Of a stretch of DNA of 64,000 nucleotides, positions 37,316-48,833 are shown in pieces (position 1 is the stretch's first letter; each line of letters starts with the position of its first letter). Source of the stretch: Ectothiorhodospira haloalkaliphila ATCC 51935. Its GTDB lineage: Bacteria; Pseudomonadota; Gammaproteobacteria; Ectothiorhodospirales; Ectothiorhodospiraceae. The position numbers and the translations under genes were made by a program. The notes under the pieces are model-generated. The model made no database searches and was not told the origin of the DNA. It worked only from the letters and a program-made list of their open reading frames with translations. The stretch spans positions 1,068,010 to 1,132,009 of the forward strand of contig NZ_KK214998.1 in NCBI RefSeq assembly GCF_000633935.1, read 5' to 3'.

Positions 37316-37350
37316 CCCGTGGGAGCGGCCCTCGGCCGCGAAGGGGTTCC
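37316..37350. repeat. Pseudomonas-type REP element
   Basis: The sequence CCCGTGGGAGCGGCCCTCGG then CCGCGAAGGGGTT has the layout of the classical Pseudomonas REP (a GTGGGAGCGG...CCGCGAA palindrome with a GGCCGC/GCGGCC stem). It lies 35 bp upstream of the long hairpin element and may be part of the same composite insertion region between gmk and the thioredoxin gene. Confidence 0.6.
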
Positions 37351-37384: not shown

Positions 37385-37502
37385 GAACCTCGGTGGGGCG
37401 GCATGCCTGTCCGCGGGACGCCGTGAATACCTCCCTGTAGGCTTGATCGCCGCATCCCTGCGGCGAACACCCGCTCCCAGGCATGCCGCCCCACCGAGGT
37501 TC
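37385..37502. repeat. Long hairpin element, copy 1
   Basis: Outer arms at 37385-37409 and 37478-37502 are perfectly complementary over 25 bp. Inside them a second pair, GCGGG (37413-37417) and CCCGC (37470-37474), encloses the core GCGGGACGCCGTGAATAC then CTCCCTGTAGGCT, followed by a small hairpin TCGCCGC-ATCCCT-GCGGCGA (37447-37466). The core is shared with copy 2 at 48136-48250, but the outer arms are unrelated. It lies between the gmk and thioredoxin genes. Confidence 0.85.
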
Positions 37503-43818: not shown

Positions 43819-43878
43819 GGGGGTGAACGAAGCCTGGAGAGTGACCAGTCTCCCCGGCAACCACCTCAGGCACCCGCC

Positions 43879-43923: not shown

Positions 43924-44000
43924 TGGTCGGAGTGAAAGGATTCGAACCTTCGACCCCCGCCTCCCGAAGGCGGTGCTCTACCAGGCTGAGCTACACTCCG
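43924..44000 (-). tRNA. tRNA-Pro(CGG)
   Basis: A full cloverleaf of 77 nt is on the minus strand. The acceptor stem CGGAGTG/CACTCCG is perfect, the D-loop is AGCTCAGCCTGGTAGAGC, the anticodon arm is CCGCC-TTCGGGA-GGCGG with anticodon CGG, and the T arm is GAAGG-TTCGAAT-CCTTT. Discriminator A and the CCA end are encoded. It reads CCG proline codons. No integrase is next to it. Confidence 0.96.
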
Positions 44001-45950: not shown

Positions 45951-48120
<2,170 letters not shown>

Positions 48121-48135
48121 GGTGTGGGGGTAGCG

Positions 48136-48250
48136 GCCCTGCCGGGTGCCGGAGGTCTGTTGGCGGGACGCCGTGAATACATCCATGTAGGCTCTGCAGC
48201 CGCTTCCTGCGGCTGAAGCCCGCCAACAGACCTCCGGCACCCGGCAGGGC
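48136..48250. repeat. Long hairpin element, copy 2
   Basis: Arms at 48136-48167 and 48219-48250 are perfectly complementary over 32 bp. They enclose the core GCGGGACGCCGTGAATAC then ATCCATGTAGGCT and an inner hairpin CAGCCGC-TTCCT-GCGGCTG (48197-48215). The core differs from copy 1 at only two positions over about 31 nt, while the outer arms share no similarity with copy 1. It lies between convergent proB and the DsrE-like gene, so it may act as a terminator as well. Confidence 0.88.
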
Positions 48251-48275
48251 CTTGATGCATTGCGAAGGGGGGGTG

Positions 48276-48833
48276 TTACTCGATCTTGATGTAGGCGAAA
48301 CCCTTGGTGTTCTGCAGTTCGGCCAGACGCACCACGCCTGAGGGCACCATGGACACCCCGTCGTAGAGCCCATCTTCCGGCAAATCAAGGGCCGAGCGGG
48401 TGATGTCGCAGAGCTCCACCTTCACGCCATGCACGGACATCAGGGAACTGAGTCGACCGCGCAGATTGTCACGTTCGGCGGCCAGGGTGTCGTCCTCGGC
48501 GAAGGGGGAGCCTTCCAGGGGGTCGTCGGTCAGGAAACGGATGCCGTGGGAGACGGCGACGATGCGGATGTCGTGATCCATCAGTTCATTCTCGTAGTGC
48601 ACCGCCATGTTGTTGATGCTGGTGAGCATGGCGCTGAACCGGCGGGGATCAGAGAAATCTGCGTGGTAGACCACGCGGGCGGCGGGGTCCGCAGCGGCAG
48701 CCGTGGACGGCACCACCAGGAAGGCCAGGCTGATGAGAAGCCAGGCCATGGCCAGGCCCTGCCAGCGTTTCAGTCCCGAAGCCGCGGTTCGGCCTTCGTG
48801 AGCGCTCATCCCGTTCGGACAGGATTGTGTCAT
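48276..48833 (-). CDS. DsrE-family exported protein
   Basis: The 185-residue protein has an N-terminal hydrophobic segment (about 28-45, AMAWLLISLAFLVVPSTA) and a DsrE-like domain: RVVYHADFSDPRRFSAMLTS, ENELMDHDIRIVAVSHGIRF, VKVELCDITRS and MVPSGVVRLAELQNTKGFAY. DsrE proteins take part in sulfur transfer, and a single Cys in VELCD could carry persulfide. The start at 48833 is set by GGAGG 8 bases upstream; a longer frame to 48986 is rejected. It is convergent with proB. Confidence 0.75.
   Translation of the reverse strand: MTQSCPNGMSAHEGRTAASGLKRWQGLAMAWLLISLAFLVVPSTAAAADPAARVVYHADFSDPRRFSAMLTSINNMAVHYENELMDHDIRIVAVSHGIRFLTDDPLEGSPFAEDDTLAAERDNLRGRLSSLMSVHGVKVELCDITRSALDLPEDGLYDGVSMVPSGVVRLAELQNTKGFAYIKIE

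Follow-up and report, generated by a model that had tools for sequence, protein, structure and literature searches.

The usual practice is to classify short bacterial repeats by their ends and to regard them as selfish DNA; MITEs in particular are grouped by their ends. Integron attC sites are a folded single strand with variable arms, in which the outer boxes are conserved and the centre varies. The TwoAYGGAY RNA motif, going by its name, has two hairpins with AYGGAY loops. PMC2864571 lists that motif for Gammaproteobacteria and others. ERIC, NEMIS and RUP are named as bacterial MITEs in PMC3733652, which also reports REP dimers whose spacers have complementary ends or small stem-loops and describes repeated 'TIR' families in Stenotrophomonas maltophilia, with their sequences in figures. 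For CsrA, PMC7652899 gives a SELEX consensus of RUACARGGAUGU, selected hairpins mostly with six-nucleotide loops closed by AC/GU and with four or fewer contiguous pairs, and a dimer that bridges sites 10-63 nt apart with an optimum above 18. The same paper gives the CsrB repeats as CAGGA(U/A/C)G, describes RsmE structures in which hairpins have ANGGAN loops, and states that very stable stems may disfavour CsrA binding.

Here we describe an element of Ectothiorhodospira in which one folded core, bearing the signature of a global-regulator site, lies inside repeats with unrelated ends and is kept as its surroundings diverge.

Two copies in the window

The window, a stretch of 64,000 nucleotides from Ectothiorhodospira haloalkaliphila ATCC 51935, contains two copies of the element. 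In an inverted-repeat search of the window (arms of at least 20 nt, at most 200 apart), their arm pairs are the longest and most complementary among 8 inverted pairs, the remaining 6 being 20-27 nt at 74-81%. The focal arms, 48135-48167 and 48219-48251, are 33 bp long and 100% complementary with 51 nt in between. Those of the second copy, 37385-37417 and 37470-37502, are 91% complementary, and their three mismatches (G/A, G/G and A/G) make a 3x3 internal loop. The sequence-only reading had already seen a hairpin with perfect 32-bp arms here, which is correct except that the arms are 1 bp longer, and its second copy at 37385-37502, with the core kept and arms unrelated to the focal ones, is likewise confirmed. 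Taken on the strand opposite to the one used in that reading, the core folds as a three-way junction of P1 (the arms, free in sequence) and two hairpins, P2 and P3, each usually showing GGA in the loop; we refer to this as the GGA strand. The features of the window are as follows.

48135-48251, minus strand (putative folded strand): focal element; perfect inverted repeat, minus-strand fold, and excess of G.U over A.C across copies
48135-48167, no strand: left arm of the P1 stem, 3' in an RNA read from the minus strand; 33 bp with 100% complementarity to 48219-48251
48219-48251, no strand: right arm of the P1 stem, 5' in an RNA read from the minus strand; from the inverted-repeat search
48167-48193, minus strand: focal P3 module; from sequence, pair covariation in 51 copies and loop conservation
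48170-48172 with 48190-48192, and 48178-48180 with 48187-48189, minus strand: pairs of the focal P3, with a UUCAC bulge
48181-48186, minus strand: focal P3 loop, AUGGAU on the minus strand
48197-48215, minus strand: focal P2 hairpin, stem 48197-48203 / 48209-48215; from sequence and P2 covariation
Within that hairpin, minus strand: focal P2 loop, AGGAA (CAGGAAG); 140 of 176 far copies likewise have GGA in this loop
37385-37502, minus strand: second element, with arms of another sub-family; left arm common to L010, L011, L017 and L018
37417-37443, minus strand: P3 module of the second element; from sequence and the core scan
37319-37340, plus strand: REP GTGGGAGCGGCCCTCGGCCGCG, 98 bp left of the core of the second element
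43840-43875, no strand: site without a copy in this genome, filled in L221 (G007) and L244 (G009)

The focal element lies between a putative proB-like gene on the plus strand, ending at 48120, and a minus-strand open frame ending at 48276. When the minus strand of this copy is folded in silico, P1 and P2 form, and the energy model pairs part of P3 otherwise.

The folded core

An alignment of 51 diverse copies on the GGA strand is free of gaps. P2 has nine pairs interrupted by one unpaired base per side and a GGA loop, and is followed by an unpaired A. P3 is built of GCC/GGC plus a three-pair stem (e.g., UAC/GUA) with a conserved UUCAC bulge and the loop ANGGAN, after which an unpaired GU leads into the second arm. 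The 51 copies were kept from 109 that had GGA at a spacing of 23 and at least 5 of 7 P2 pairs. Over the 16 pairs, 96.6% of the cells are paired, a percentage that is inflated, and the P2 GGA is not independent in this alignment, because the copies were chosen on P2 pairing and on that GGA. Double changes occur in 12 of the 16 pairs; double-changed cells number 171 vs 46 in shuffles and 18-28 when the partners are slid. The closing pair of P2 is C-G in 50 of the 51 copies.

Since the first scan had used a fixed P3 loop, the loop was rescanned with its six positions free, and NTCCNT was found in 146 of the 150 matches listed, which are a part of the total. In the far set, a crude hairpin finder placed GGA in the P2 loop of the 140 copies given above and found it absent from the best P2 hairpin of the other 36 of 176. 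The two GGA are about 23 nt apart, and the spacing is 21-24 nt in 139 of the 140 far copies that have both. The P2 stems are nearly free in sequence, with 115 distinct ones among the 176 far copies by the same crude finder.

Several copies vary on this plan. Many Ectothiorhodospira copies (for example L010, L016, L021) have, close to the arm base, a 3x3 internal loop that is GGA/GGA or GTA/GTA in the GGA strand; it is missing from the focal copy and from L034-3387. A lone copy in another genus of the family (L268, in G023) has a P2 stem unlike those of Ectothiorhodospira, yet complementary. A small repeat, GCAGATTTTTGCTCCTGCAAAATCTGC and the like, splits the P2 loop in L093 and L115 of Methylotuvimicrobium buryatense 5G and in L087 and L131 of Methylomicrobium sp. 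wino1.

Distribution of the core

The core GGGACGCCGTGAATACNTCCNTGTAGGCT, allowing up to 3 mismatches, occurs at 39 places in this genome, and the reversed control at 0. It was found in all 9 of the Ectothiorhodospira genomes sampled (1 to 34 copies each), in 1 of 15 other members of the family (one copy) and in 0 of 15 genomes of other families in the class. In a wider sample of Gammaproteobacteria, 29 of 369 genomes, representing 26 of 271 genera, have it at 1 to 438 copies, the richest genome rising to 460 with a looser pattern. That similar cores occur in other Gammaproteobacteria had been proposed, and the 26 genera bear this out. A scan of named genomes with the exact pattern matched at least 117 stretches; the 80 matches listed all have gammaproteobacterial or broader labels, such as 'Proteobacteria bacterium', and include Stenotrophomonas, Methylotuvimicrobium, Thioalkalivibrio, Arenimonas, Methylomonas and Microbulbifer. 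Across the phylum, a covariance model (E up to 1e-4) matches 34 of 397 genomes; 31 belong to the class, and the 3 outside it have weak single matches.

Nothing in Rfam reaches the gathering score in 12 kb around both window copies or in 19 further loci. The weak matches on the element are to microRNA models and to Ysr224, the latter at 30 bits at most against a gathering score of 70; these Ysr224 matches (RF02770, a Yersinia sRNA) fall on the non-GGA strand of L003, L012, L021, L024, L044, L045 and L046. The literature searched, a scope that leaves aside most subscription papers and sequences inside figures, has no description of the core, and the passages of PMC2267715 examined have nothing on it. 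Overlap with the S. maltophilia 'TIR' families of PMC3733652 is possible. Relative to the libraries and papers searched, this is a new structured family, and the small mobile DNA that carries it is of known kinds.

Spread on plasmids or phages was tentatively set aside, on a test that is weak given the uncertain cover of the host genera in the sets searched. At E up to 0.01 the window copy is without a match among 72,556 plasmid and 50,697 phage records, and at E up to 10 two other copies give only partial plasmid matches. The exact pattern is absent from viral contigs, and one copy searched against E. coli genomes has no match. Within the chromosome, copies sometimes lie in tandem: there are three with a period of 159 bp and like arms at L008/L009 (G000:C2:663811-664157) and two at 151 bp in L034 (G000:C4:56283-56462).

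Vehicles and mobility

In Ectothiorhodospira, 27 of 95 copies have the core at the centre of a 215-250 bp unit ended by inverted REPs with outward tags. By genome, these are 9 of 36, 10 of 32 and 8 of 27. The bounding REPs are of the kind GTGGGAGCGGCCCTCGGCCGCGAA. REP pairs without a core in the same genome span 70-151 bp, mostly 70-91, as counted in 308 kb made up of the window and stretches mostly chosen around copies; the REP pair at L296 4678-4914 is one that holds the core. The second window copy has the left REP only, at 98 bp from the core, which is the usual distance in REP-bounded units; near the focal copy there is no REP out to about 250 bp. The genome also contains a Y1-transposase frame that is flanked by REPs left and right and is taken for a RAYT. 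In L040 (1000-2480) this frame runs from 1417 to 1899 on the minus strand, and the REP clusters on either side repeat in steps of about 120 bp.

Methylotuvimicrobium has two other vehicles. Element A is 234 bp long with ends GGAATATGCACAAAATAACT... and is filled in two genomes. At the empty site in two other genomes there is one TAA(G) where the filled site has two; of the remaining genomes, G394 diverges there and G392 gives no clear reading. From the copies' ends, we read the target duplication as a 3-bp TWA. Element A thus has the terminal inverted repeats and the target duplication, single at the empty site, that define a MITE, as seen at one site. Element B is 160 bp long with fixed TATACC...GGTATA ends and has dozens of close copies in related genomes. 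By eye, elements A and B and the REP-bounded units have the core in common and neither the ends nor the arms. Since the core is the same in vehicles with different ends, it is presumably cargo, and the ends are presumably the signals for movement. The suggestion that this is a small mobile element distinct from ordinary REPs is upheld by the clean filled/empty pair in Methylotuvimicrobium and by the REP-bounded units; ordinary REPs are also present.

In Ectothiorhodospira, all three genomes compared have a copy at the focal locus. Empty sites elsewhere were examined for a lone arm in 11 filled/empty alignments: five show remnants of deleted copies, six show neither a remnant nor a clean duplication, and none of the 11 has a clean duplication. 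At 43840-43875 of the window, the outer left arm survives as a stub of about 10 bp, and the sister species have a copy there, beside the tRNA at 43927-44000. Because an arm end is left and two sister species are filled, loss seems likelier than gain at this site. In G009 (L244, 1100-1450), the upstream gene is separated from the element by a tandem array with a unit of about 46 bp, GAAGACTTGCTCCCTTCTCCCCGAAGG..., which is absent from the other two genomes compared.

Stop-to-stop frames within 1.5 kb of cores (2058 in all) were clustered, and inspection by eye of the 40 largest clusters revealed no family of transposases or reverse transcriptases; these clusters look like ordinary genes and frames derived from the element. 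A Y1 transposase has no match in 12 of 46 bearers of the element and also none in 4 of 34 non-bearers. Bearers without Y1 include G369, G504, G585 and G761, which are given as 100% complete and have at least 9 model matches each. Recognition by RAYT of GTAGG in the core was rejected on two counts: the TAC/GTA there is swapped for TCC/GGA, CCC/GGG and others, even at one orthologous locus, and those 12 bearers have no Y1 match.

Arms and core in resident copies

Copies fall into sub-families with common arms. The left arm of the 37385 copy is 89-93% like those of four other copies in the genome (L010, L011, L017 and L018) and one in a sister species. The focal left arm is 93-96% like its orthologues in two sister species, and outside these its next best match is 75% among 101 copies compared. 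The pairwise tests cover 36 of the 39 copies, three having been lost to the regular expression or flank limits, and 27 of the 36 have a counterpart at the same site in one or two sister species, as judged by flank identity (one by its left flank only). The sequence-only reading had found no similarity between copies and suggested that the arms are renewed in each copy, by copying or inverted duplication, and not inherited. The window's two copies are indeed unrelated in their arms, but common arms within sub-families and among orthologues go against the general statement. Renewal in each copy is likewise unsupported, given these sub-families and the 27 copies with a counterpart at the same site. 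Arms shared in this way also speak against fresh inverted duplication of the target as a general rule.

Inherited arms change in pairs. In 28 ortholog pairs in which at least 22 of 30 positions are paired in both copies, there are 86 changed arm positions: 41 are compensated double changes, 2 are other doubles and 43 are one-sided. The 41 compensated compare with 5.3 double changes expected. The independent divergence of arms in relatives, one of two signs that would have pointed to an ordinary hairpin repeat, was thus not seen; the other, arms shared between copies, was. Four loci (L012/L238, L015/L240, L033/L253 and L029/L229) carry 27 of the 41, and at these much of the outer arm is altered on both sides together. 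Such block changes make occasional copying from arm to arm, or replacement by another copy, possible. L029/L229 has similar flanks around five compensated and zero one-sided changes. Upstream of L012/L238 there is a relic of the other arm, which makes it likely that a neighbouring copy replaced the original at this locus. The arms are mostly inherited and evolve pairwise, with occasional block change possible.

Over 36 ortholog pairs, which were found by the core pattern with 3-4 mismatches and are therefore biased towards conserved cores, though fewer mismatches were seen, the P3 linkers differ at 5/540 positions (0.9%); within the P3 loop, GGA and its A differ at 2/144 (1.4%), as against 21/72 (29%) at the free (N) positions (Fisher p=1.5e-9 for GGA plus A against free). 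Over the same pairs, the left arm differs by 12.5%, P2 by 5% and the flanks by 3035/14975 (about 20%), this last figure coming from global alignments with 23% gapped columns and maybe inflated; local flank matches of the orthologues are 76-97% identical. Resident copies look constrained after insertion.

These patterns bear on the view that we are dealing with an ordinary MITE or REPIN-spacer hairpin, devoid of host function, whose core is kept by conversion and few parents and whose arms are kept by template switching. The MITE- and REPIN-like vehicles, the block changes with few one-sided ones at four loci, and the deleted-copy remnants at 5 of 11 aligned sites would all fit. However, conversion of whole copies would not let the loop N positions (29%) and arms (12.5%) diverge while GGA and linkers stay at about 1%, and copying from arm to arm is symmetric and does not predict the excess of G.U over A.C described below. 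We regard this view as distinctly unlikely.

Which strand folds

Decay that is neutral with respect to strand is expected to leave equal numbers of G.U and A.C mismatches in the arms. On the GGA strand, 101 copies (100 from Ectothiorhodospira and one from another genus) have 98 G.U vs 27 A.C, and the 155 of 176 far copies with an arm score of at least 12 have 270 vs 83. When similar arms are merged into 59 clusters, G.U is in excess in 41, A.C in 5, and 13 are ties (p=4e-8). Purine (G/A) mismatches in the arms also outnumber pyrimidine (C/U) ones. Together, the G.U and purine excesses argue that the selected folded form is the GGA strand, as RNA or single-stranded DNA, and not a two-strand cruciform.

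The bias is the same whichever way the upstream gene reads, with G.U to A.C at 104:33 when co-directed and 102:28 when opposed, and transcripts running on from that gene therefore do not account for it. In the window's genome the GGA strand is the sense strand of the upstream gene in 26 of 36 cases (p=0.01). The far set has 55 sense vs 63 antisense, and in tandem genes only, 22 vs 39 (p=0.04), which is opposite in direction to the window's genome. These orientations come from a crude codon-usage gene caller, as do the gene contexts given below. With the two ratios alike and orientation not favoured in the far set, cotranscription with the upstream gene was dropped as a general cause of the strand bias. 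The bias would need a promoter belonging to the element, a stage as single-stranded DNA or descent from parent copies under selection; inspection by eye found no promoter.

HUH (Y1) enzymes act on one DNA strand, and the folded GGA strand could be the substrate of such an enzyme, with the like-looped hairpins as its recognition sites and with arms kept paired because only well-folded copies move. A strand-specific fold independent of gene orientation is what this would produce, dispersal to 438-460 copies is in keeping with it, and the REP ends in Ectothiorhodospira point to HUH enzymes. It is harder to reconcile with the 12 of 46 bearers without a Y1 match, some of them 100% complete, or with the lack of a recurring transposase family among the 40 largest clusters beside the core. 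The vehicles with different ends make the ends look like the signals for movement, and the apparent constraint on copies after insertion is also against it. On balance, a single-stranded DNA module is unlikely.

A candidate CsrA-binding module

We slightly favour the reading of the element as a mobile, clamped, double CsrA-binding RNA module carried by unrelated short mobile elements, with its transcription, CsrA binding, the clamping role of the arms and the effect on the host all conjectured from the DNA. The P3 module reads UACANGGANGUA, which fits the published CsrA/RsmA consensus. As the sequence of a CsrA/RsmA site calls for, GGA is in the loops of short hairpins, with A before it and a C-G closing pair. 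The focal P2, CAGGAAG, fits the CAGGA(U/A/C)G repeats of CsrB, while its loop, AGGAA, has five nucleotides and is unlike ANGGAN. The stable stems of P1 and P2 count against the CsrA reading, as do the 36 of 176 far copies with no GGA in the best P2 hairpin, the 11 of 147 far copies that overlap called frames, and the gene orientations of the far set. The window's genome has two csrA matches. A csrA match is found in 43 of 46 bearers vs 32 of 34 genomes without the element, so its presence does not discriminate. The three bearers without one are all drafts: G364 (31 copies, 85% complete), G219 (98%) and G032 (75%).

The GGA strand would most likely act as RNA. The arms, once transcribed, would force the cassette to fold inside any transcript. 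A CsrA/RsmA dimer may then dock on both GGA loops, so that each copy would tether CsrA or act as its decoy. The module would spread within chromosomes as cargo, on REPIN-like units in Ectothiorhodospira and on two inverted-repeat families in Methylotuvimicrobium. A more ambitious proposal, to which we give rather less than an even chance, is that a CsrA/RsmA docking cassette has spread across Gammaproteobacteria as the mobile cargo of unrelated transposition systems, namely REPIN-like units and two or more kinds of inverted-repeat elements, that the arms of each vehicle serve as a sequence-free clamp, and that copies are then fixed and constrained, leaving tens to hundreds of decoys or tethers per chromosome that set the level of free regulator.

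The placement of copies among genes could also suit an RNA element with another partner or role, such as a 3'-end stabiliser, an RNase III site or a terminator-like hairpin, in which the GGA loops are not for CsrA. No copy overlaps a called gene in the window's genome (0/36), as against 1/32 and 0/27 in two sister genomes and 11/147 far copies overlapping called frames. Copies in the window's genome lie between convergent genes 13 times and divergent genes 5 times. With this placement and the long perfect stem, such a role has some appeal. A plain stabiliser, however, needs no fixed loops, junction or bulge, the GGA-GGA spacing is fixed, and a U-run directly after either arm is absent in the copies inspected by eye. 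We consider a role of this sort very unlikely. One sub-family has a T-run about 12 nt past the right arm, on the other strand.

Should CsrA bind the core, a whole regulatory network would be supplied and tuned by mobile repeats, and as many as several hundred sites in a genome would have a role open to testing. The element is also a case for measuring how inverted arms keep their complementarity.

Comparison with known systems

The REPIN/RAYT system of GTAG-type REPs is similar in that 27 of 95 Ectothiorhodospira copies lie in inverted REPs and a REP-flanked Y1 frame is present. It differs in that the core-loaded units are 215-250 bp vs 70-151 for empty ones, the core is shared across genera, no REP lies within about 250 bp of the focal copy, and a Y1 match is missing in 12 of 46 bearers. 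Like the bacterial MITEs ERIC, NEMIS and RUP, the element is short and non-coding, with inverted ends, a long hairpin and, in one family, a target duplication; here, in contrast, the central core is conserved and the ends are unrelated. Integron attC is also a folded single strand with variable arms, but in the present element it is the centre that is conserved and the outside that varies. TwoAYGGAY, going by its name, likewise has two GGA-loop hairpins; the Rfam 15 scans of 12 kb around the window copies and of 19 loci, in a library that may not include this family, list no match to it. Finally, CsrB and RsmY/RsmZ have in common with the element the GGA hairpin loops, the ANGGAN loops, the CAGGA(U/A/C)G repeats and a spacing that a dimer could bridge. 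Unlike them, the element, known here from DNA alone, is dispersed and mobile, and each unit puts two sites on a long stem whose sequence is free.
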